DNA from: a virus
DNA: 20,788 nucleotides
Direction: 5' to 3' (one strand)
Virus record (IMG/VR): IMGVR_UViG_3300049810_000881
Coordinates: 1-20,788 of that record
A program made the position numbers and the translations under genes. The notes below the pieces were generated by a model. The model was not told where the DNA came from, ran no database searches, and saw only the letters and a program-made list of their open reading frames with translations. Below, one piece after another: positions 6,595-20,303 of this stretch. The number at the start of each line of letters is the position of its first letter. Position 1 is the stretch's first letter.

Positions 6595-8439
6595 TTATAA
6601 CTTAGGAGAATAAATGGTTATAAGTTCGTCTTTGCCTTTCACCTTTATATTACCGATCTCCTTACAGATATACTTCTCTGGGAGTTGGTCTCTGGTGAAT
6701 GACGATATGATTGTCTTATATTCTATATATTCATGTCGAGCGGCAGTGGCCTCGAGACGGGCTGCAAGGTTGACTGCATCTCCAATGACTGAATAATCGA
6801 ATCTGGATTCAGAGCCCATGTTACCAACAATGCAATCGCCGGTGTTAATGCCAGTACCGACATTAATATCAGGAAGACCTCTTGATTTATACATTTCTTT
6901 AAGTTCATTTGTTTTAATCTCTATTTCTATTGATGATTTAACGGCCATCTCAGCGTGATTATCACATGGTAGTGGTGCATTCCAGAATGCCATGATACAA
7001 TCGCCCATGTACTTATCTATTGTTCCACCGTTATTGAGTATGATTTTTGTCATGGAATCTAAGAATTCATTAACCAATTCTACCAGCCCTTCTGGATCAT
7101 CTTTGTTCTTATAGTACTCACTGATAGGGGTGAATCCGCATATATCCATGAATAAGAAGCTCATTTCTTTTCTTTCACCACCAAGGGTTAAGAGAGATGG
7201 GTCTTTCTGTAACATATATACCATATCAGGTGACAAGTAAGTTCCAAATTGTTTCTTAATCTGTTGTCTCATCATAAACTGTTTATAGAAATTATTAAAT
7301 GACGCCGAAGAGAATATCAGTATATATAATATCAGAGGGTAACTAATATCAAGGAGATATCCAAATTCGCTCCAGGAAAACAATGCGCCGTAGACAGATA
7401 ACCCAACAACGGCAAAGAAGGTTAAACCACTACTCCAAATTGGAAGATAATAAACTGCCCCTACAATCAATAGAGCCCCAATCAAAGAAAGACCGATCTC
7501 CAGAATATCAGCCCAAAGTGGACGGGTTATCTGATCCCCATTCATTATTGTCTGCAGAGCAGAAGCCTGAATTTGATGAGCAGATTTTAATCCTTGAGGG
7601 GTTGGAATCTGAGAGGCAAGGCCCTTTGCAGTTAAACCAACCAGTACAGTCTTTCCTTGTAGATTCGGAAGGGGTTCCGAAGTGTATTCTATATCCTGAA
7701 AACGGTATTTAGGATTAATCCATATAGATCCATTTACATCAGTTGATATTCTAAATGGCCTTAATATAATTTCTTCTAACCCTATCTCACTAACCTTTAC
7801 AGTATAAGATATTTTCTCGTTTAATACACGTATTGTTTCTAATGCAAATGAGGGATATAGTTCATCATTGATTTGAGATATAAGAGGTATTCTTCTTACT
7901 ACACCATCAACTTCTGGCATTGCATTAATTAAACCATGGCCCCATGCACCTGCTTCTATTTCTGGTATATTGGTTACTAATCCTTTATATCTTATAACGT
8001 GATTAAGTGGGTCTCCAGTACCAAATGTGGCAGTTCCAACATAAGGTGCCTTTGCACTTCTACCACTATTATCTGCGTCTTGTGAGAGTATAATACCATT
8101 ATCTTTTACCCATGACGCGAAGACTTCATCACCACCGAATCTATCAGCCTCTGGAAACATGATAGTAAAACCAATCATACCAGCATTGGCATTTCTTAAA
8201 TCTGATATTAATTGTGCATACTGCTGACGTGGAAAGGGATACTGACCGAAGACTCCGAGTGATTCTTCTCCAATATTTAAGAGAATTACTTGGTCTGATT
8301 CTTGTACGGGTAAAGAATTAATATATTGATCAAATACAGTAAGTCTAGTTTCTTCTAAAATAGAAGGGTCACTGATTCTTACAAAGAGAATACATGCTAT
8401 TAGAACTATTGTAGTCCATATCGAAGTAATATATTTCAT
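6595..8439 (-). CDS. CHASE2-sensor membrane adenylate cyclase (class IIIb)
   Basis: This 614-aa protein makes cAMP from ATP. Order of parts: N-terminal membrane helix (about 5-22); a large extracytoplasmic CHASE2 sensor (about 28-300, with a typical FPEADRFGGDEVFA-type region); three close membrane helices (about 311-380); a short linker; and a class III nucleotidyl cyclase domain (about 425-612). The catalytic set is complete: metal aspartates D432 (FMDICGF) and D480 (KYMGDC), purine-selecting K476, and transition-state N557 and R561 (VNLAARLE). The second selector is Ser (S550 in YSVIG) where class IIIa has Asp, the mark of class IIIb adenylate cyclases. The start has no Shine-Dalgarno and overlaps the stop of a 26-aa ORF (ATGA). 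It is the last gene of the curli-like run. Such an enzyme is very unusual in a phage. Confidence 0.93.
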   Translation of the reverse strand: MKYITSIWTTIVLIACILFVRISDPSILEETRLTVFDQYINSLPVQESDQVILLNIGEESLGVFGQYPFPRQQYAQLISDLRNANAGMIGFTIMFPEADRFGGDEVFASWVKDNGIILSQDADNSGRSAKAPYVGTATFGTGDPLNHVIRYKGLVTNIPEIEAGAWGHGLINAMPEVDGVVRRIPLISQINDELYPSFALETIRVLNEKISYTVKVSEIGLEEIILRPFRISTDVNGSIWINPKYRFQDIEYTSEPLPNLQGKTVLVGLTAKGLASQIPTPQGLKSAHQIQASALQTIMNGDQITRPLWADILEIGLSLIGALLIVGAVYYLPIWSSGLTFFAVVGLSVYGALFSWSEFGYLLDISYPLILYILIFSSASFNNFYKQFMMRQQIKKQFGTYLSPDMVYMLQKDPSLLTLGGERKEMSFLFMDICGFTPISEYYKNKDDPEGLVELVNEFLDSMTKIILNNGGTIDKYMGDCIMAFWNAPLPCDNHAEMAVKSSIEIEIKTNELKEMYKSRGLPDINVGTGINTGDCIVGNMGSESRFDYSVIGDAVNLAARLEATAARHEYIEYKTIISSFTRDQLPEKYICKEIGNIKVKGKDELITIYSPKL

Positions 8440-8516
8440 GCGTATACATCTATATATAAGCCTTTAGGAATACCCCAGCCATATTTAAGACGAAGAAATC
8501 TTTGATAAGAATTCAT
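8436..8516 (-). CDS. 26-aa ORF coupled to both neighbours
   Basis: A 26-codon ORF (MNSYQRFLRLKYGWGIPKGL, then six more residues) exactly fills the gap between the 88-aa gene and the cyclase. Its ATG overlaps the upstream stop (TGATG) and its stop overlaps the cyclase ATG (ATGA). The cyclase start lacks a Shine-Dalgarno, so this ORF may pass ribosomes to it by termination-reinitiation. It is basic and aromatic and not a membrane helix. It could encode a real micropeptide or act only as a translational relay. Confidence 0.5.
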   Translation of the reverse strand: MNSYQRFLRLKYGWGIPKGLYIDVYA

Positions 8517-8782
8517 CAGCTAAATCTTCTTTGTATATATTTAAAGATTGCATATATACTTAACCCATAAAAGGCCAAGACACTCATTGGTAGTGCAATA
8601 TATGCTAACTCCCATGGAGTTAAGAATAATACTTGCCATGTAAAATCAGCAACTGCTTGAGCATCACTCATTTCTGCCATTTCTAATTCACCAGTCAAAT
8701 CGATTTCGTATTCGTTTACAAAATCAAACCACTGTTCATCAGTCATGCAAATCATATCATCTGGACATTTAAATTCTTCCAT
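8516..8782 (-). CDS. 88-aa membrane protein in the curli/cyclase operon
   Basis: The first 55 residues are strongly acidic, with two Cys (FKCPDD, ICMTDEQWF). One transmembrane helix follows (about 58-79, WELAYIALPMSVLAFYGLSI), then a short basic end (KYIQRRFS), so the acidic part probably faces outward. It has no cleavable signal and matches no Csg protein I know. It lies two bases after curlin-like B and is coupled through the 26-aa ORF to the cyclase. Position suggests a link between the exported proteins and the sensor. That role is inference. Confidence 0.7.
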   Translation of the reverse strand: MEEFKCPDDMICMTDEQWFDFVNEYEIDLTGELEMAEMSDAQAVADFTWQVLFLTPWELAYIALPMSVLAFYGLSIYAIFKYIQRRFS

Positions 8783-8784
8783 TA

Positions 8785-9513
8785 TTAATTACCTTGTTCT
8801 ACTGTGGCCGAACAACCACCTACTGTCATACAATCAATACTTAAAGTGTACGTTTGACTTGTAGTACCTAATTGTTTTAAGATTAAATCAGTACCATATA
8901 ACCCATCGAGTGTTACGTTTGCACTGTGTGATGTATTATTACCTTTCTGTCGAACAAATACATCATTATAGTCATTGTAAATAGTAAGGTCTAAATTCTT
9001 TGCACCATTACTTTGTTGTTTTATTTTAACTTCGTTATGGTCACCTGCTAAATGTAAATTAAAGTCATGACCATCAAGTGCGCCTGTTTGATTTGTTTGT
9101 TGAACTGCTAATTGATTATAGTCGCCATACATAGTAACATCTATTTCATGACCACCACTCTCATAGTCATCCACCCACCAAGTTAAATCAGTATCAGAAT
9201 CAAGTGTAGTCCATGCAGCGCCTTGAGCGAGTTTCATTTGGTTACCAGTTCCACTTAATTCGTCAAAAGTAATTTTATTAGGAAGTCCAGTAGTTGTGTT
9301 AACCTGAACTAAATACATATCTAAATTTGTTGCTGTAATATATGAATTACTATCCAACATTTCGATTTCGTTACTATGACCTAACTGATCAATACCTAAT
9401 TGTAAATTATCGCCAGATTGTTCTAATGATATTACATTATCATCAGCACAGAGTTGTGCTGCAAAGAATAATAATATAATTAATATACCTAAATGTGTTC
9501 CTGTTATCTTCAT
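8785..9513 (-). CDS. Curlin-like (CsgA/CsgB-type) exported repeat protein B
   Basis: The ATG at 9513 overlaps the FecR stop (TGATG) and gives a 242-aa precursor with a signal peptide ending around residue 24 (LCA/DD). The mature part has curlin-type strands alternating hydrophobic and polar residues with Gln and Asn at fixed places. Examples are ISLEQSGDNLQLGIDQLGHS, GDYNQLAVQQTNQ, GDHNEVKIKQQSNG and NDYNDVFVRQKGNN. Curlin repeats stack as a beta-solenoid and polymerise into amyloid outside the cell. It is longer than E. coli CsgA (151 aa), and a less regular segment around residues 60-120 interrupts the repeats. Two Cys near the C-terminus (CMTVGGC) could pair. The first module closely resembles that of curlin-like A, so the two are probably paralogues and likely cargo of the CsgG-like pore. 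Confidence 0.85.
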   Translation of the reverse strand: MKITGTHLGILIILLFFAAQLCADDNVISLEQSGDNLQLGIDQLGHSNEIEMLDSNSYITATNLDMYLVQVNTTTGLPNKITFDELSGTGNQMKLAQGAAWTTLDSDTDLTWWVDDYESGGHEIDVTMYGDYNQLAVQQTNQTGALDGHDFNLHLAGDHNEVKIKQQSNGAKNLDLTIYNDYNDVFVRQKGNNTSHSANVTLDGLYGTDLILKQLGTTSQTYTLSIDCMTVGGCSATVEQGN

Positions 9514-10628
9514 CAATTCGCCTGATTTATATAAATGAGGATATCTTCACCCCCATTCCCTGTTACGATACCTTCCCAAGATGGTGTTATAGTATCTAAG
9601 GTAAAATTTCCGCCAGCGGCAATCTTAATTCTTATTTTACCACTTACACTTCGGTATAGAACTAATGCGCCATCTTCTAAAAATACATTAAACTGTGATT
9701 CATCATTAAAACCTCTTGATGCGCCTTTTATATCAAACTCACCTAATGTATCAAATAAGTCAGAAGAATCAATAATATCTAAAACATCAACCAAATAATC
9801 TACGTTTAATTCATCAATATCTAGTTCGTTAAAATCTAAGTTTTCTTCTGAATCTGCTAATTCGTCTTTTTCTAATTCATCAAATTCTAAAAAGTCAATA
9901 TCAAGAAGACCTTTATCCTGATCAGCATCATCCGCCATTTCTTCTTTTATTTGATCTTCAACCTCGGGCGGAGGTGCTACAATAAACATATTGTCAATTA
10001 AAGCTGGTGTAATACCATTAACTACAACTGTTTGTGTTGGTGATTGGTCTAATGAAGATACCATAGTTGCCGCATAGGCTTGAGTTAAGGTAACCTCACC
10101 ACCATCATTTGAAACTATTATTTCGCCTGAAGGATCTCCATTATCATCTGGTAATAATATAATTAATGATCTGCCCAATTCATCTACGGTAGTAGTAAAA
10201 TCTGTTCCCCTAACAGCAATTGATGCAGTAGGGGTTGAGATGTCTATATTGGCTTTATTTACTAAACCCAATCTACCAGATGCAAATCTAGCTGTACCCA
10301 TTGTAAACTTCATACTCATTTTTGAGAGTGAAGGATCCGGGTCATAATATATTTCGTCTATTAATACTTCTGAATGCTCTTTTAAAGCGAGTTCCGCCTT
10401 ATCTAAGAATTCAATTAATATTCTTCCGTTTCCAGTTTTCGCCTCATCATATAACTGTACAGGTATTTTTTGGCCTGTAACAGATATCTGCTCGTTATTT
10501 CTAACAATCTGGCCAATACCAGTCGACTCTACTATATCACCAATGGAATTAGCTTCAACCCCACTGGTGAATAGTATAAGACTAACTATCGTTAGCTGCG
10601 TCTTTCTGATTAATTTGTACAGTAGCAT
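9513..10628 (-). CDS. FecR-domain periplasmic protein with acidic linker
   Basis: The frame is open further upstream, but that stretch overlaps curlin-like A. The ATG at 10628 starts a good signal peptide (cleavage near residue 26, VEA/NS), giving 371 aa with a 47-base overlap. A FecR domain spans about residues 49-179, with the signature STPTASIAVRGTDF at 131-144. Next comes an extremely Asp/Glu-rich stretch (about 222-299, including DFNELDIDELNVDYL), which could bind calcium or stay disordered. A small beta domain (about 313-369) ends the protein. FecR domains usually carry signals across the periplasm. From family knowledge, FecR-domain proteins often neighbour CHASE2 cyclases in bacteria, and both are present here. 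Confidence 0.85.
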   Translation of the reverse strand: MLLYKLIRKTQLTIVSLILFTSGVEANSIGDIVESTGIGQIVRNNEQISVTGQKIPVQLYDEAKTGNGRILIEFLDKAELALKEHSEVLIDEIYYDPDPSLSKMSMKFTMGTARFASGRLGLVNKANIDISTPTASIAVRGTDFTTTVDELGRSLIILLPDDNGDPSGEIIVSNDGGEVTLTQAYAATMVSSLDQSPTQTVVVNGITPALIDNMFIVAPPPEVEDQIKEEMADDADQDKGLLDIDFLEFDELEKDELADSEENLDFNELDIDELNVDYLVDVLDIIDSSDLFDTLGEFDIKGASRGFNDESQFNVFLEDGALVLYRSVSGKIRIKIAAGGNFTLDTITPSWEGIVTGNGGEDILIYINQAN

Positions 10629-11319
10629 TATCTGATGTAATATCCAAGTTAATGATTGCATTAGGACTTGCACAAGGTGAACCACCCACACAAGTACCTG
10701 ATATCTGATTAATATCAATATCACCGCTATCTCCATTCCATTCTACTGTTAAACTTTGCTCACCATCATTTTGTAATGTATTAATATTGTTACTATCTCC
10801 AGTAATATCAAAGTTCCAAGTAACATCATCAGATTCAAAATCTAAATCAAATACATTAGAAGTACCTAATAGTATTAAGTCCGCATCAAGTCTTTCTGCA
10901 CTTACTGTAAAACCCTGATCAATATCAAAAGTATTAGAATCACCTGTTATAGCAAAGTCATAATTTGATGAGTCTGAACTACCAGTATCACCAATATTCC
11001 AGTCTACTTTGTTTGAATCACCAGTTAGACTAAATGTTAAACTGGATGAATCAAGTTTAGCAGGTCCATAAATCAAGTTTTGGTTACCAATCATATCAAG
11101 GTTAAATGTTAAACTCGAACCTGTGATTAACATATCGGAACTAGACGATGAAAAGTCAGTGCCTCCGATTTTGTTACCATAACCAACCTGATCAATATAT
11201 AATGTCAAAGTGTCACCACTTTGTTCTATCAAAATTTCGTTATCATCAGTGGCTTGTGCGAAAACAGATGAACTCGCCATTGATAATACTAACAATAAAC
11301 TAATTTGTTTCTTCATCAT
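10582..11319 (-). CDS. Curlin-like (CsgA/CsgB-type) exported repeat protein A
   Basis: The ATG at 11319 follows GAGG by ten bases (a second ATG is adjacent) and starts a classic signal peptide ending VFA/QA; the longer frame adds only non-signal residues. The 245-aa precursor is a Ser/Asp/Asn-rich beta-repeat protein. It opens with EILIEQSGDTLTLYIDQVGY, a curlin-type module, and repeats the turn TGDSN three times (SLTGDSNKV, AITGDSNTF, DITGDSNNI). It ends with a Cys pair and NATVQINQKD. Lysine and arginine are scarce, so the product is very acidic. It starts 17-20 bases inside the end of the CsgG-like gene. The curlin call rests on the repeat pattern and the neighbours; the repeats are more degenerate than in E. 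coli CsgA. Confidence 0.85.
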   Translation of the reverse strand: MMKKQISLLLVLSMASSSVFAQATDDNEILIEQSGDTLTLYIDQVGYGNKIGGTDFSSSSSDMLITGSSLTFNLDMIGNQNLIYGPAKLDSSSLTFSLTGDSNKVDWNIGDTGSSDSSNYDFAITGDSNTFDIDQGFTVSAERLDADLILLGTSNVFDLDFESDDVTWNFDITGDSNNINTLQNDGEQSLTVEWNGDSGDIDINQISGTCVGGSPCASPNAIINLDITSDNATVQINQKDAANDS

Positions 11320-12268
11320 TTTCGTTATCCTCTTTGTTTGAGTGCCTTTCATTAGTCCCATCAACTTGATGGGGATGTCTATGGCCCTCGGTTAAATCCC
11401 AGAAGTTACGGTCATGCCCCTGGTATATTAATTCAAGTACTGCAGCCTCAATGGCTGATCGTACCGCATATGTCACCGACTCATTATTACCAACCCCGTC
11501 TTCATACTCAATTAGTTGGGTTCCTTGTTCAATAAAACGAAACACATCACCCCCACCGCCGTAAGAAAGTACCGATTTCTTAGCTTGGACATTTAATAAT
11601 ATTTCACCCGTTAACACAGATACTGCTCTCACAGAGACCGTTACAACGTCTTTACGATACATTTTGCTAAAACCTATACCAAGTGTTCGTGCACCACGGC
11701 CGCCAGTTTCAGTATTAGCATCATAACCAATAATTCCTCCCTCTATAATCATTCCAGCGAATAAGAGAGGTCCCACACCCTTTGGGTCAACACCATTTAC
11801 TTTGGCAACATCTTGCCTAGTTGACCTTACAATTTGTCTTTCTCTGACTAGGTTATCAATACCTTGTCGTTCTACTACTCTAAACCACGTACCGCCGCCT
11901 GCAGTTTTAAGAGCATCTATTAATAATTCTGTTCCGCCTTGGGTCACTGCAGTAGAAAACGATGCTATATTATCTACTGACTTTCTTTGGCCTGTTTTAT
12001 CTTCAAACTTATATACTGCAACAACCGGTTTTTCTTTTGCAGGTGGAAGATTTAATAAGTCCACATACGCAGGTAACCTAACTGCAGTTGGTTCATCAAT
12101 ACAGATATACTTTCTAGCCATTGTCTTTTGTATACCCATTTGAAGGTGTCTATTAAACCCTTCATCATACTTACCCTCAAGGTCGTTACAATCTTGCGGG
12201 TTCGGACTCCAAGTTGGAACCGATGCACAACCACTTAAAAGCAATAATATAATAAGATACTTAACCAC
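11300..12268 (-). CDS. csgG: CsgG-like outer-membrane lipoprotein secretion channel
   Basis: In enterobacteria CsgG forms a nonameric outer-membrane pore that exports curli subunits. Here a GTG at 12268, eight bases after AGGA and overlapping the CsgF-like stop, gives 322 aa. It begins with a lipoprotein signal and lipobox LLSGC (Cys14). Core matches to E. coli CsgG include ASFSTAV, WFRVVERQGIDNLVRERQIV, GMIIEGGIIGYDANT and GEILLNV, with VLSY soon after. Differences: about 45 extra residues with two Cys between the lipobox and the core, and a His/Asp/Glu-rich C-terminal tail. In the pore constriction the E. coli Phe56 is kept (SF), while Tyr51 and Asn55 appear replaced. The longer frame upstream lies within the CsgF-like gene and is rejected. 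Confidence 0.95.
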   Translation of the reverse strand: MVKYLIILLLLSGCASVPTWSPNPQDCNDLEGKYDEGFNRHLQMGIQKTMARKYICIDEPTAVRLPAYVDLLNLPPAKEKPVVAVYKFEDKTGQRKSVDNIASFSTAVTQGGTELLIDALKTAGGGTWFRVVERQGIDNLVRERQIVRSTRQDVAKVNGVDPKGVGPLLFAGMIIEGGIIGYDANTETGGRGARTLGIGFSKMYRKDVVTVSVRAVSVLTGEILLNVQAKKSVLSYGGGGDVFRFIEQGTQLIEYEDGVGNNESVTYAVRSAIEAAVLELIYQGHDRNFWDLTEGHRHPHQVDGTNERHSNKEDNENDEETN

Positions 12269-12779
12269 CGTCTGAATCCTGACCAAAGTTTCCAGTACCA
12301 ACTGGAATTTCAATAACTGTTTCTGTTCCATCAGAATCAACTATTGTCATTTTAATATATTCGGATCCATCCTCATTTGTTAATACTTCATAGGTTACTA
12401 CGTTACCTTCTAAAGTAAACGAACCAAATCTTACAGAACCATCATTACTAAACATAGATTCAACAAGCTGCTTAGACATTTGAGCATATATTCTACTTTC
12501 TAAGTTACGAATAAACTTAGCCATAGTACTATTTGCTTCTTCTCTCTCTGCGGCCTTTCTTGCAGCCTCTAAAGCATCTTCTATCTGTTTCTTTCTACTG
12601 TGTTCTTGATTTTCAATTGTTAAATAATGAGCACCAGTGCCTGATCCAGAAAAAGATGGGTTCTTAAACCCAAATTTTATCTCGTCTCCGTATGCATCTG
12701 ATACGCTAAACGTACATACTATAAAGAATGTTACTATTAAAACAATTCCTATGCTATTCTTCTCTTTTCTTTTTTTCAT
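12261..12779 (-). CDS. csgF: CsgF-like curli assembly factor
   Basis: CsgF plugs into the CsgG pore through its N-terminus and helps nucleate curli at the cell surface. This 172-aa precursor has a signal peptide (about 1-31) followed directly by FGFKNPSFSG (36-45), the CsgF hallmark that inserts into CsgG (FQFRNPNFGG in E. coli). A charged helix with EEANSTMAKFIRNLESRIYA follows, then a C-terminal beta region ending in an acidic Gly-rich tail. It is somewhat longer than E. coli CsgF (138 aa). It overlaps the upstream holin-like gene by 26 bases and the CsgG-like gene by eight, so the three are one transcript. No CsgE is visible. Confidence 0.92.
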   Translation of the reverse strand: MKKRKEKNSIGIVLIVTFFIVCTFSVSDAYGDEIKFGFKNPSFSGSGTGAHYLTIENQEHSRKKQIEDALEAARKAAEREEANSTMAKFIRNLESRIYAQMSKQLVESMFSNDGSVRFGSFTLEGNVVTYEVLTNEDGSEYIKMTIVDSDGTETVIEIPVGTGNFGQDSDGG

Positions 12780-13008
12780 TTTCTTTATATTCCAAAACTA
12801 CATTAACTTTCTGTTGTAAACGTATTAAGTCCTGATCAAGCATTCTTGTCTGATCAATAACACGTATTAATGCGAAGTGCATTTTTTCAAGTTCTGGTTC
12901 TATTACATCACCAATAAAACACCAAATGTAATATAAAAAATAACCAAAACCAACACACGCAACTATAGGGAAACCATAATCGGATATACCTTGTACTAAT
13001 TCATCCAT
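12754..13008 (-). CDS. Small holin-like membrane protein 2 (84 aa)
   Basis: One transmembrane helix (about 12-35, opening YGFPIVACVGFGYFLYYIW) is followed by a long charged helix able to form a coiled coil and a Lys/Glu-rich end. The short N-terminus with a GFPI motif before the membrane helix is typical of BhlA/UviB-type holin-like peptides. Protein 1 upstream has the same plan (VGAPI), suggesting an old duplication or a partner pair. AGGAG lies six bases before the ATG. Because its end overlaps the CsgF-like gene, a role in the curli module is an alternative to a role in lysis. Confidence 0.65.
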   Translation of the reverse strand: MDELVQGISDYGFPIVACVGFGYFLYYIWCFIGDVIEPELEKMHFALIRVIDQTRMLDQDLIRLQQKVNVVLEYKENEKKKREE

Positions 13009-13017
13009 TATATTCTC

Positions 13018-13125
13018 CTATATGAATAATAGACCGATAAAAAAACCTATATTAAGTCCCAATGAACACATCAGAACAAAATCCCTAGTAAAAGAATATT
13101 CAACCATTTCTATTTCATTTATCAT
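13018..13125 (-). CDS. 35-aa membrane peptide
   Basis: The ATG at 13125 overlaps the stop of holin-like protein 1 (TAATG). The product has a short polar N-terminus (MINEIEMVEYSFTRDF) and then one hydrophobic helix to the end (VLMCSLGLNIGFFIGLLFI). Its TAG forms part of the AGGAG used by the next gene. Exact packing between two real genes supports translation. It resembles tiny phage membrane peptides such as antiholins or holin partners, but the sequence alone cannot show that. Confidence 0.6.
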   Translation of the reverse strand: MINEIEMVEYSFTRDFVLMCSLGLNIGFFIGLLFI

Positions 13126-13421
13126 TAATCGCGTCTCACATCCACTTTTCCGTCTTCAACAAAATTTTCAGCACGTGCTACTCTCTCAATGTCTGGTCTT
13201 AATTCTAAAGCACTACTCACCAACATATCAATCTTTATCATTTCATTAGCCATAGTCCTTGCTCTGTTTTCCAGTGACTCGCAGAACATCGTCAGGGTTT
13301 TAATCTGTCCGACCAAGCCCTGCAATATCTGTTTAATAATTAGGAAAATAAAAGCGCCCATAGCGATGGCTCCAGCAATAGGAGCACCAACTTGAGCTAT
13401 TAGTTCAAAGATTTCGGCCAT
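13125..13421 (-). CDS. Small holin-like membrane protein 1 (98 aa)
   Basis: A transmembrane helix (about 11-35) follows the short N-terminus MAEIFELIAQVGAPI. The rest is a long helix with many charged residues (KTLTMFCESLENRARTMANE) and a basic end. The layout matches BhlA/UviB-like holins and the second protein downstream. It lies just after the lysozyme region, where phages often keep holins. No Shine-Dalgarno is seen; the late promoter octamer ends six bases before the ATG, so the mRNA may be leaderless. Holin function is a reasonable guess, not proven. Confidence 0.65.
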   Translation of the reverse strand: MAEIFELIAQVGAPIAGAIAMGAFIFLIIKQILQGLVGQIKTLTMFCESLENRARTMANEMIKIDMLVSSALELRPDIERVARAENFVEDGKVDVRRD

Positions 13422-13427
13422 ATATTC

Positions 13428-13435
13428 TATTTATA
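13428..13435 (-). promoter_or_regulatory. T4-type late promoter (TATAAATA) opening the lysis/curli run
   Basis: TATAAATAG on the minus strand, six bases before the ATG of holin-like protein 1. It is the only late-type octamer between here and the cyclase end at 6595, so it may drive the whole run of holin-like, Csg, FecR and cyclase genes. The octamer sits in a perfect 12-base palindrome (13428-13439), so a plus-strand copy exists as well. Confidence 0.65.
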
Positions 13436-13478: not shown

Positions 13479-13664
13479 TTAGCAATACTTTTCCTTCATT
13501 TCAGATAATGAAATGTTCCAATCAGTATATCTGAAAAGACCTTTCTTTTCATTACACCAATACCATCCTTTTTCTGTTTGAGGTTCACTTGTGTGATAGT
13601 ATGTTAGACCTCTTCTAGTCTCGACATAAGTCTTTCCGCTCGATTTGTCACTTGTTTGTACCAT
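13479..13664 (-). CDS. 61-aa ORF overlapping the lysozyme 3' end
   Basis: The frame begins 60 bases inside the end of the lysozyme gene (another frame) and runs past it. The part beyond the overlap is protein-like: TYYHTSEPQTEKGWYWCNEK, then KGLFRY and a C-terminal Cys. No later start codon is visible, and the Shine-Dalgarno before 13664 is poor. It could be a separate small gene, or a C-terminal extension of lysozyme reached by frameshifting, since lysozyme ends slightly short of T4 lysozyme. Without the unique tail the stretch 13479-13603 would be unexplained. Confidence 0.5.
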   Translation of the reverse strand: MVQTSDKSSGKTYVETRRGLTYYHTSEPQTEKGWYWCNEKKGLFRYTDWNISLSEMKEKYC

Positions 13665-14068
13665 CTTGAATCACGACCTTCTACAGCCGCCTCCTTCCAA
13701 TCACCACATTGCAGCGCTGCATTGTGCTTATTAAATTTACTTAAGCGCGTAAGTCCCATATTGAACATCATGTTTGCAACTATTTGTTTTACCTCTTGTG
13801 GGTAACCGTCCCAACCATCATGTAATTTTTTACAATCTTCAAGTACTATTTCTACGTCCTTGGCAAAACATTCAATGACTCTATCCTCTGCCACTGGAGT
13901 ACCGACCTCCATCCCATGTTCTGGGTCTCCTTCCAGTACCAAGTGTCCAATGCCAAATGTAGCATAACCGAGGTGATCATTATAAATTTCATTTACTTGT
14001 CCCTCATCTATAATAAGTTGTTCTCTTAATTGATCAACGTCAATATCTTTGTCTCTATTAAAAAACAT
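13604..14068 (-). CDS. e: T4-type lysozyme (endolysin, GH24)
   Basis: This 154-aa enzyme hydrolyses the peptidoglycan glycan backbone for host lysis. The catalytic set of T4 lysozyme is present with exact spacing: E22 (IDEG), D31 (YNDHLGY) and T37 (ATFGIGH), matching E11, D20 and T26. Further matches are VANMMFNMG and SRWYKQVTNRAERL. No signal peptide is visible, so it needs a holin, as in T4. It ends about ten residues short of T4 lysozyme and overlaps the 61-aa ORF. GAGG lies eight bases before the ATG. Two holin-like genes follow downstream. Confidence 0.95.
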   Translation of the reverse strand: MFFNRDKDIDVDQLREQLIIDEGQVNEIYNDHLGYATFGIGHLVLEGDPEHGMEVGTPVAEDRVIECFAKDVEIVLEDCKKLHDGWDGYPQEVKQIVANMMFNMGLTRLSKFNKHNAALQCGDWKEAAVEGRDSRWYKQVTNRAERLMSRLEEV

Positions 14069-14069
14069 A

Positions 14070-14951
14070 TTAATCCTCTAAATAATTTGTTATATACGCT
14101 TTAACGTGCGTCATTTTTTCTATATCGGTATTATATACACCGGCCCAAAATGATAATTTATCATTTAATGATTCATCTGTATAAGGAATGGCACTTCCGA
14201 TTGATGTACACCATCTTGAACCAATATCATAACTTACTGTAAAATATACATCAACTAACGGAGACATTTCCCCACTGCTATTATATATAACACCGAAGAA
14301 ATGTGATCCAACAGATGGTATAATTTTATCTATAGTTTTACATAAATCTGGATGGTATGAATACATTTCACTCGGTGATAACATAACTTTAATGACTACG
14401 TCTGAGGTAGTCTTATCAAATTTAAGTCCATGAAATGGTAAACATATATTATATGGAAGATTAAAATATGTCTTCAATTCGCTTGTAGGTTCTTGCATAT
14501 CATAGTATGAAATACTGTTGTTAATATATGGTAACCTCATAGGAGTAAATTCTGAAACAAGATTTTTATTATCTCTCCTAAAGTCAGGAATAAAACCGTC
14601 CCAACCAGCTTCTAATTCGTCTACAAGAGCACTACCTTCATCAGTATCTATTGAATAATCTTTTCTTGCAATACTTCCGGCCATATACACATCATCGCGT
14701 ACAGATTTACCGATATTTGATTCTGTATTTAAAGTAGAAGTTTTTATTTGACCATATTGAGATTCATAACGGTTAACGGCTAATTTTGTAGTCAAGTTCC
14801 AATCTATGGAACCATCAGTGTATACTGCATTTTGTACTACTGTATTAGTCTCATCGTTAAGTGTTATAGTAGAAGGTAATAGCGGTGACACATTTCCATC
14901 TGCATCTATGGTTCTTGATGTATTATTTTCTTTAGTAATATGAATTGGCAT
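14070..14951 (-). CDS. Tail-fibre-associated protein of unknown function
   Basis: This 293-aa protein sits between the fibre-like gene and lysozyme, its ATG overlapping the fibre stop (TAATG). Composition is mixed and polar, with several aromatic-rich beta segments (YFNLPYNICLPFHGLKF, GSHFFGVIYNSSG, VDVYFTVSYDIGSRW). The N-terminus (MPIHITKENNTSRTIDADGN) is polar and Thr/Asn-rich. No signal peptide, membrane helix or enzyme motif is visible. Genes directly after a tail fibre often encode fibre chaperones, adhesins or virion decorations, so a virion role is likely but inferred. Confidence 0.7.
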   Translation of the reverse strand: MPIHITKENNTSRTIDADGNVSPLLPSTITLNDETNTVVQNAVYTDGSIDWNLTTKLAVNRYESQYGQIKTSTLNTESNIGKSVRDDVYMAGSIARKDYSIDTDEGSALVDELEAGWDGFIPDFRRDNKNLVSEFTPMRLPYINNSISYYDMQEPTSELKTYFNLPYNICLPFHGLKFDKTTSDVVIKVMLSPSEMYSYHPDLCKTIDKIIPSVGSHFFGVIYNSSGEMSPLVDVYFTVSYDIGSRWCTSIGSAIPYTDESLNDKLSFWAGVYNTDIEKMTHVKAYITNYLED

Positions 14952-16243
14952 TATACTATCTCCACAAAGTTTGTTACACCGTTAGTGGTTCCGAAATAAC
15001 TCACGAAGGAAAAACTACCAGACTGTGTCCAAGTGGCAGTTGCACTACTCGTGCCGTTATTTGAAACAGAAAATGACATATTACTTCTATAAAGAGTTGC
15101 TTCAGGCGAACCTGACGCATTACTTTGATTAAAGTATACATTTATTTGAGTCCACCCAGAATTTGTGTATATAGGAGTACTACCCGATGCAGCAACAATA
15201 AAAGAAAGAGTATTGCCAAGAGCGTTTCCTAAACCTGTCATCTTAGAAGTATTACCTTGGAATGTAAAATTAGAACTGGCCGCATGAGCACCTGAGCTAT
15301 AATACTGATTAGTTTGATAAATATAACCAAGAGCTTCTGAGTGAACGCCAGGGCTTACTCTAGTCTTACCATAAAAGTCTGAAAATTCTATCTGACCACT
15401 TGTGGGTATACCAGTTGTATTATGATATATACCGCCTTTATAATAATCGCTGATTTCAATATTATTAGTAGCAACATTACCCGACATTTCTTCTGAAATA
15501 CCATTAGTAAAAGTAGTATTACCTGATCTAGTAATATAAATTCTAGTTGATGCAGTCTTTACATTACCAAAATCAATACTAGCATCGGATATATTGTCCC
15601 AAGTCCAAACACTTTGTATTCCATCATAATCATATGATGCTCCACTACGTGTATGAATAATACCATCACCGTTATTATCATAAGTTGTAAGTTGATAAAA
15701 GGTATTATCACTATTTGGAACATTTCCAGCTAAAGAAAACCAAAATTGATTACCAGTATTTTGAGAATATCCGCCACTAGTAAAAGTGGATGTATTTTTT
15801 AAGTAACCAATATCATTAATAGTTCTTACAGTAGAACTTGCATCTGTATATGTGCTACTACCTAAACTACCAACTGTAGATGAAGTAGACGAGTTAAGTG
15901 CTAAATCATTACCTGACCAGTTGCCATAAGGAGGGGTACCCATATAATCCCACGCTTCCGTAAATATAGGAGAATAATAACCACCAGGGTTAGTAAAAGC
16001 TATGTATGTTTTTCTTGCAGCTGAACCAGTATTTCTTCTATAATAGTATGCAGTTCCATCAGTAATCTGTATACCATAATATGATGAAAAGCCAGGTTCT
16101 GATTCAAAGGAACGTCGATATTGTGCCCAACTTGAATCTGCACCAAAAGACAATGAATTATAACCAGTATCTAAAAGGACATTGGATGAAGGGTTTGCAC
16201 CAGCATCTTTAAGGCCTAAAGCACCACTTGATATTAATGTCAT
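14951..16243 (-). CDS. Tail-fibre-like virion structural protein
   Basis: This 430-aa protein is rich in Ser, Thr, Asn, Gly and Tyr and poor in Lys, as fibre and adhesin proteins often are. Near residue 290 it carries IPTSGQIEFSDFYGKT, preceded by NIEISDYYKGG. This short motif pair recurs in structural proteins of marine T4-like phages. The first part resembles a glycan-binding beta region (YYYRRNTGSAARKTYIAFTN); the last 110 residues look like a separate beta domain (NVYFNQSNASGSPEATLYRS) that may be the receptor-binding tip. The ATG overlaps the stop of the 87-aa gene (ATGA). Host-specificity role is inferred. Confidence 0.8.
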   Translation of the reverse strand: MTLISSGALGLKDAGANPSSNVLLDTGYNSLSFGADSSWAQYRRSFESEPGFSSYYGIQITDGTAYYYRRNTGSAARKTYIAFTNPGGYYSPIFTEAWDYMGTPPYGNWSGNDLALNSSTSSTVGSLGSSTYTDASSTVRTINDIGYLKNTSTFTSGGYSQNTGNQFWFSLAGNVPNSDNTFYQLTTYDNNGDGIIHTRSGASYDYDGIQSVWTWDNISDASIDFGNVKTASTRIYITRSGNTTFTNGISEEMSGNVATNNIEISDYYKGGIYHNTTGIPTSGQIEFSDFYGKTRVSPGVHSEALGYIYQTNQYYSSGAHAASSNFTFQGNTSKMTGLGNALGNTLSFIVAASGSTPIYTNSGWTQINVYFNQSNASGSPEATLYRSNMSFSVSNNGTSSATATWTQSGSFSFVSYFGTTNGVTNFVEIV

Positions 16244-19566: not shown

Positions 19567-19785
19567 TTAAATTTTTACCTGTTCTGAAGTAAAATGTGTT
19601 TCTAAAATCATTAACTTATCTTCGTATTCGGCAATCTTACCGATTTCACCAGATATTGTCTCCATAATATCAATGTGTTCTCCTACACCCACAGGGTTAT
19701 TGAAGAATGCTTCAACATTCATTTTGTGTTTACCAATCTCGCCATGGTAATGATTCTTTAGCGCTGTTATCATTTGATGTCTCAT
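19567..19785 (-). CDS. Small conserved phage protein (72 aa)
   Basis: The ATG at 19785 overlaps the peroxiredoxin stop (ATGA), preferred over a longer frame inside that gene. The 72-aa product (MRHQMITALKNHYHGEIGKH, then NVEAFFNNPVGVGEHIDIME and a helical acidic end) is almost all helix, with a conserved-looking NPVGVGEH turn. I recall a clearly related small protein in many marine and enteric T4-like phages, of unknown function. It is the last gene of the nuclease/peroxiredoxin unit. Confidence 0.75.
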   Translation of the reverse strand: MRHQMITALKNHYHGEIGKHKMNVEAFFNNPVGVGEHIDIMETISGEIGKIAEYEDKLMILETHFTSEQVKI

Positions 19786-20303
19786 GCTACAAACTCCTCT
19801 CCTGGATTCCACTCACACCCAGTAAGACCACCGGCCTTGAGTGCTTGTAGAGTTCTTAATACTTCATGTGCATTTCTACCAGTATCTAGTGCATTGACCG
19901 ATACGTGTTGAATTACCATGTTTTTATCATAAATAAATGTTGCCCTGTAACAAACACCTTCGTCTTCGTTTACAATACCGAGTTTATGTGATAAACCAAG
20001 ACCACAATCTGCTGCAAGAGTATGTTTAATACTACCGATTAATTTATTCTCTTGTTTCCATGCAAGTTTGCAGAATTCGTTATCACCACTGATACCAACA
20101 ACATTCGCTTCTTCTACCAACATATCCATTCCAGCAATTTCTGTGGGACAGATAAAGGTAAAATCTTTTGGATAGAAATAAACCACACTCCATTCTTGTT
20201 TGTGAGGCGTATATCCATTCTCAATATTTACTTCAACGAATTCATTATTTTCATTGACACCCTGTAAATTACATACAGGGAATTTATCACCAACTGTTAA
20301 CAT
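19782..20303 (-). CDS. 2-Cys peroxiredoxin (AhpC/Prx family)
   Basis: This 173-aa enzyme reduces hydrogen peroxide and organic peroxides. The peroxidatic site is PKDFTFICP, with P45, T49 and C52 forming the PxxxTxxC motif, and R120 (CYRATFIYD) is the conserved active-site arginine. The resolving cysteine is C163 (LTGCEWNPGEEF), as in typical 2-Cys enzymes. AGGAG lies five bases before the ATG. It lies between a nuclease and a small phage gene, so it is phage-borne, probably acquired from a bacterial host. Likely role (inference): protecting the infected cell or phage DNA replication from oxidative stress. Confidence 0.95.
   Translation of the reverse strand: MLTVGDKFPVCNLQGVNENNEFVEVNIENGYTPHKQEWSVVYFYPKDFTFICPTEIAGMDMLVEEANVVGISGDNEFCKLAWKQENKLIGSIKHTLAADCGLGLSHKLGIVNEDEGVCYRATFIYDKNMVIQHVSVNALDTGRNAHEVLRTLQALKAGGLTGCEWNPGEEFVA

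Follow-up and report, generated by a model that had tools for sequence, protein, structure and literature searches.

The window analysed here is the whole 20,788-nucleotide stretch of the IMG/VR virus record IMGVR_UViG_3300049810_000881, one entire viral contig. On its minus strand, from 13421 to 6595, it carries a curli module in which two small one-transmembrane (TM) proteins, TMa and TMb, are followed by CsgF, CsgG, curlin-like protein A, a FecR-domain protein, curlin-like protein B, an 88-residue protein and a cyclase. A preliminary description of this DNA had listed CsgF, CsgG and the two curlin-like proteins as consecutive genes. All four were confirmed at their positions and on the minus strand, but the list proved incomplete, since the FecR gene lies between the two curlin genes, the 88-residue protein and the cyclase come after them, and the TM pair comes before. 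The features of the module are:

13428..13435, minus strand: core of a T4-type late promoter, TATAAATA, upstream of TMa
13125..13421, minus strand: TMa, 98 residues with one TM, the leading member of the phage-specific pair (PHROG 18771; ratio of nonsynonymous to synonymous substitution rates, dN/dS, 0.06)
12754..13008, minus strand: TMb, an 84-residue one-TM protein, paralogue of TMa (PHROG 18771; weak holin match)
12261..12779, minus strand: CsgF, carrying a signal peptide and the pore-binding segment FGFKNPSFSG (Pfam CsgF 6.5e-16; aligned to E. coli CsgF)
11300..12268, minus strand: CsgG outer-membrane lipoprotein pore, probable GTG start at 12268 (Pfam CsgG 1.2e-51)
10582..11319, minus strand: curlin-like protein A, predicted to be secreted, start at 11319 or 11316 (repeat statistics, beta-solenoid model)
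9513..10628, minus strand: secreted FecR-domain protein with a curlin-like C-terminal strand (PF04773 1e-7; FecR-type fold, Z 15.1)
8785..9513, minus strand: curlin-like protein B, predicted to be secreted (Curlin_rpt 0.002, repeat statistics)
8516..8782, minus strand: 88-residue membrane protein, which only a minority of the relatives have (19 of 84 loci)
6595..8439, minus strand: CHASE2 class III adenylate cyclase (CHASE2 4e-37, cyclase 7e-19)

The profile matches of CsgF and CsgG are strong. In CsgF the match spans the full Pfam model, and the FGFKNPSFSG segment that had been noticed after its signal peptide aligns with the pore segment of E. coli CsgF; this N-terminal motif (FxxNPxF) is kept in 200 of 203 relatives. 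The window CsgG aligns to the E. coli CsgG structures at 4e-47 and bears the lipobox that the preliminary description had reported (LSGC in the window), as do 178 of its 184 relatives. The authors of the work on the phage Melnitz argued that the partnership of CsgF and CsgG may have been lost, and they proposed a role in lysis (PMC9004378); the conserved pore motif speaks against the idea that CsgF has left CsgG. A 1,499-base "Salmonella phage" record in INPHARED (OR851715.1) consists largely of one CsgG gene and is possibly host DNA.

By permutation, the curlin repeats of proteins A and B are real despite Pfam scores below the curated cut-off, and they lie far above shuffled expectation. Protein A contains six strand-GxxN units against 0.25 expected (0 of 2000 shuffles) and protein B three against 0.18 (p ~0.001), and 42 of the 46 relatives of protein A match Curlin_rpt, the best at 8.6e-6. 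The AlphaFold2 model of protein A, for which one row from an isolate record was left out of the alignment, is a regular beta-solenoid with a predicted local distance difference test score (pLDDT) of 81.5 and a predicted template modelling score (pTM) of 0.76. The solved structures closest in sequence to the curlin-like protein are curlins, with a weak match. A Foldseek search with the model gave nothing significant; the VIA matches of the model reach a Z of 16.9, and because the best of them are unrelated beta-solenoids such as SufBD, they support the fold class alone.

For the conservation counts, loci were fetched with two different CsgG queries and scored only where enough flanking DNA was present. 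The TM pair stands before csgF in 136 of 137 phage loci, the FecR gene is present in 91 of 91, and the cyclase gene and the second curlin-like gene are each found in 59 of 60. The gene order is conserved among relatives, and the isolates HTVC008M and Melnitz show the identical one (two short genes, csgF, csgG, curlin, FecR, curlin, cyclase). All genes of the module are under purifying selection, with median dN/dS values of 0.06 to 0.14. Far more than 100 other viral contigs carry a curli module, which, together with the phage genes on its flanks, rules out the bacterial contig misjoined to phage sequence that the preliminary description had named as the reading that would overturn its own.

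Three contigs of jumbo-phage size, L224 (357 kb), L265 (349 kb) and L283 (236 kb), carry the curli module with the TM pair; in L265 the pair follows fecR and the cyclase is inverted. Fourteen apparent phage contigs with curli modules are binned in GTDB bacterial genomes (L084-L089, L093, L094, L099, L100, L106, L110, L115 and L117), the bins being Pelagibacter, Synechococcus, Bacteroidota, Rhodobacteraceae and Pirellulales. One of them, L106, had been suspected of lacking the cyclase domain, which Pfam nevertheless finds.

The position of the T4-type late promoter core bears on the timing of expression. The motif ATAAATA occurs within 60 nucleotides upstream of TMa in 108 of 171 distinct loci (63%, versus 3% in shuffles), as compared with 27% for csgF, 12% for the cyclase gene and 0 to 2% for csgG, the curlin-like genes and fecR. 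Its count across the whole window is below expectation; what is informative is solely where the motif stands with respect to genes when loci are compared. Owing to this enrichment before the first TM gene, the module is probably transcribed as a late operon. In the window (13421-13435, minus strand) and in relatives the core often falls at -13 to -6 from the ATG of the first TM gene, so that the TMa messenger may be leaderless.

The family identities, the conserved order, the late-promoter enrichment and the purifying selection are matters of observation. The best reading of them, and probably the correct one, is a curli-type surface fibre made late in infection and exported by a phage-borne type VIII operon. 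CsgG would form the outer-membrane pore, with CsgF seated in its neck through the N-terminal FxFxNPxFSG segment, and the two secreted curlin-like beta-solenoid proteins would leave through CsgG and, on the surface of the infected cell, build a fibre or coat of the curli type. The TM pair may act as a phage-specific partner in the inner membrane. With lower confidence, the FecR protein might be a fibre-associated anchor or a periplasmic partner that docks on the curlins through its C-terminal strand, and it might signal to the CHASE2 cyclase or be sensed by it. The late use of a curli-type secretion module, as had been proposed for this DNA, is thus supported by the family matches, the intact CsgF motif, the purifying selection, the gene order and the late core; the benefits that had been put forward with it (superinfection exclusion, host aggregation, progeny retention or a lysis-related role) are no more than candidates.

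Several points weigh against a curli-type fibre. The Curlin_rpt scores of proteins A (0.011) and B (0.002) are both below the Pfam curated cut-off, and many of the repeats lack the internal glutamines of CsgA. CsgE (PF10627) gave no profile match in the window record or in ten related long records, which bears out the earlier remark that none was visible; it is missing from alphaproteobacterial curli modules as well (PMC9599517), and CsgE therefore does not define the wider type VIII kind. Melnitz carries the whole module, and culture work on it found no clumping (PMC9004378), which argues against an aggregation role in that system. The window, moreover, is a fragment.

Among 80 loci fetched with TMa alone, 70 carry curli-module genes, inverted and shuffled orders included; of the remaining ten, nine have sequence that stops within 2 kb downstream of the TM pair, and in the tenth (L264) the pair begins at the contig end. 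A search of 50,697 records of isolate phages gave the pair in HTVC008M and the Melnitz strains and in no others, and the isolates that possess csgG are those same phages, one 1.5-kb record aside. From this co-occurrence, the reverse test and the isolate records it follows that the two TM proteins are a fixed, phage-specific component of the module and probably not lysis proteins of general use. L110, binned as Pirellulales, has csgF without an adjacent TM pair.

In the published pelagiphage modules a histidine kinase (HK) is placed before CsgF (PMC9599517). To judge from their position and stated shortness, these "HK" genes are probably the TM pair; if so, the label would be wrong for proteins of 84 to 98 residues, as no kinase domain (HisKA, HATPase) was found in 15 + 15 relatives.

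According to the lysis proposal published for Melnitz, CsgG, with or without CsgF, and a holin-like TM pair would time or complete lysis, and the curlins would not form fibres. The late promoter before the module and the lysozyme upstream of it in the window fit this scheme, as do the small size and single TM of the paired proteins and their weak matches to holin and, among relatives of TMb, to YvrJ. However, no more than 34 of 113 loci have lysozyme close to csgF, the TM pair stays with the curli genes even in rearranged modules, and the scheme leaves no role for the intact CsgF motif or for two curlin-like proteins that are under purifying selection and both present in 59 of 60 loci. We consider it unlikely.

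If the module does build a curli-type fibre, the likeliest benefit is that in dilute water late fibres prevent the lysing cells and their progeny from drifting apart from neighbouring hosts, a tentative suggestion that may well prove wrong. Alternatively, a fibre coat could mask the infected cell and block adsorption by competing phages. The known exclusion genes of T4 act early, and late transcription of the module would come late for exclusion, which counts mildly against such a role. The surface-directed nature of the module, with conserved subunits that are predicted to be secreted, and the limitation of phage entry by curli-rich biofilm (cited in PMC9599517) speak in its favour; exclusion nonetheless appears improbable, to much the same degree as lysis.

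The FecR-domain proteins possess an N-terminal signal peptide and, in about 98% of 140 members, no later TM. The 13 members that were scanned showed no recognised domain beyond PF04773 and no anti-sigma or regulator part, and on these features an iron-responsive anti-sigma regulator, which would have a cytoplasmic anti-sigma segment and a TM helix ahead of its periplasmic domain, was rejected. The protein is labelled an iron-dependent regulator in pelagiphage modules (PMC9599517); its sequence features would correct this label to that of a secreted protein without an anti-sigma part. All 140 members, with 86 different tails, end in a curlin-like strand (IxIxQ), the Gln of which is invariant in the 46 aligned. 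The tail matches the curlin-repeat hidden Markov model weakly (median 0.3 bits), but the best match of that model falls at the FecR C-terminus in 72 of 115 proteins versus 4% of shuffles. In the structural model the C-terminal beta domain has strands recurring about every 21 residues, and structure comparison gave no counterpart for this domain, a negative that counts against no reading; the model as such resembles signalling domains of the FecR type, with a Z of 15.1, and, at a Z of 9.8, a domain for anchoring at the cell surface.

The window cyclase retains all class III catalytic residues (DKDDNR: two metal-binding Asp, the adenine-selecting Lys and Asp, and the transition-state Asn and Arg), as do 68 of 92 relatives. 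In the other 24, among them the cyclases of Melnitz and of a phage of jumbo size, the adenine Asp is replaced by Ser or Gly and the transition-state Asn by Ser. The cyclases of L003, L117 and L224 belong to one clade with DKDSSR or DKDGSR and, to judge from these residues, may be inactive or altered.

Precedents for a signalling pair are found in bacteria. The Burkholderia BiofilmReg operons likewise code for a secreted FecR-domain protein next to a CHASE2 sensor, in addition to their own histidine kinase, LysM and response regulator (PMC5192318), and Sinorhizobium CHASE2 cyclases are triggered from the outer membrane, by their partner protein NsrA (PMC13001267). By analogy, a FecR-CHASE2 signalling pair is plausible in the phage module, although neither system sits in a curli module. 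More speculative, and in our view doubtful, is a phage-specific variant of curli secretion with a trans-envelope sensor, made up of the TM pair, the CHASE2 cyclase and the FecR protein with its curlin-like tail, by which export of the fibre would be tied to the final stage of infection. Cyclic nucleotide monophosphate (cNMP)-binding domains were not found in 11 phage records, and of 79 Pelagibacteraceae genomes just 4 have one; the suggested route from cyclic AMP (cAMP) to a transcription regulator is therefore doubtful in such hosts. If the sensor were real, cAMP would lack its canonical receptor in Pelagibacteraceae and the cyclase would act by another route. A primary role in import or signalling, in which an ungated CsgG admits nutrients or FecR-CHASE2 senses the envelope with the fibre secondary, agrees with the failure to find the CsgE gate in 11 records, the nearly universal cyclase and the BiofilmReg arrangement, but it is very unlikely in view of the 24 cyclases without key residues, the rarity of cNMP-binding domains and the superfluity of CsgF and two curlin-like proteins.

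The phage curli module as such is not new. In line with what the preliminary description had said of curli-related clusters in pelagimyophages, csgF and csgG were reported in these phages (PMC7029224), and the order HK-CsgF-CsgG-CsgA/B-FecR-CsgA/B-cyclase was described in podo- and myo-pelagiphages (PMC9599517). Modules with FecR and cyclase are thus already in print (PMC7029224, PMC9004378, PMC9599517), and the window module is a complete further example. It differs from the modules of pelagiphages and a methylophage (HTVC008M, Melnitz and HTVC023P-type) in its CsgG (about 45% identical), its upstream lysozyme and its extra 88-residue membrane protein. In common with E. coli curli it has the CsgG pore, the CsgF pore segment and, probably, secreted repeat-bearing subunits; unlike E. 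coli curli it lacks CsgE, its repeats are degenerate, and a FecR protein, a cyclase and the TM pair are added.

HK and cyclase have been stated to be absent from bacterial curli operons (PMC9599517). For the cyclase this claim is corrected by two Caulobacteraceae metagenome-assembled genomes (L090, L091) and Hyphomonas TMED17 (L092, on a 705-kb contig), in which csgF-csgG-curlin(s)-FecR-CHASE2 cyclase operons lie amid bacterial genes, with CsgF scores of 121 to 134 bits and without the TM pair. A search of some 700 Alphaproteobacteria gave the subtype in no further genome; about 60 additional bacterial curli loci, for the most part alphaproteobacterial, have neither FecR nor cyclase. In both the CsgG and the cyclase trees the three operons are nested within the phage diversity at different places, and exchange between phages and bacteria, in one direction or the other, has therefore taken place.

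What is added here is the definition of a larger unit, comprising the late promoter, the TM pair, the curlin-tailed FecR protein and the intact CsgF segment, together with the correction of published labels. Many marine phages carry curli modules, and the defined unit makes loose ideas about them testable, in terms of both the genes for the fibre and its timing. Bacterial counterparts and jumbo-sized phage versions are now on hand for comparison, and the question is raised of what cAMP does in hosts without a canonical receptor.

The remainder of the window is that of a T4-like marine phage, with gp32, the gp59 helicase loader, DNA ligase and an exonuclease all on one strand; lysozyme, gp32, gp59 and DNA ligase flank the curli module. 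The gp32 proteins of phage C48C1 (unassigned), HTVC008M and cyanophages each share about 55% identity with that of the window. Since gp32 is thus equidistant to several phages, and the CsgG of HTVC008M shares only about 45% identity with the window CsgG, these comparisons do not establish SAR11 as the host. The neighbouring gene upstream of the module is:

13604..14068, minus strand: lysozyme (Pfam Phage_lysozyme 1.8e-6), a neighbour of the module in the window's clade only

The preliminary description had placed the module next to lysozyme and tail genes. The lysozyme is borne out and the tail label unconfirmed, as the two open reading frames upstream of it (14070-16243, minus strand) gave no match in Pfam or PHROG; their relatives occupy the same place in about 20 loci. 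Elsewhere in the window, an AhpC/TSA peroxiredoxin gene (Pfam 7e-21) is located at 19782-20303 on the minus strand.

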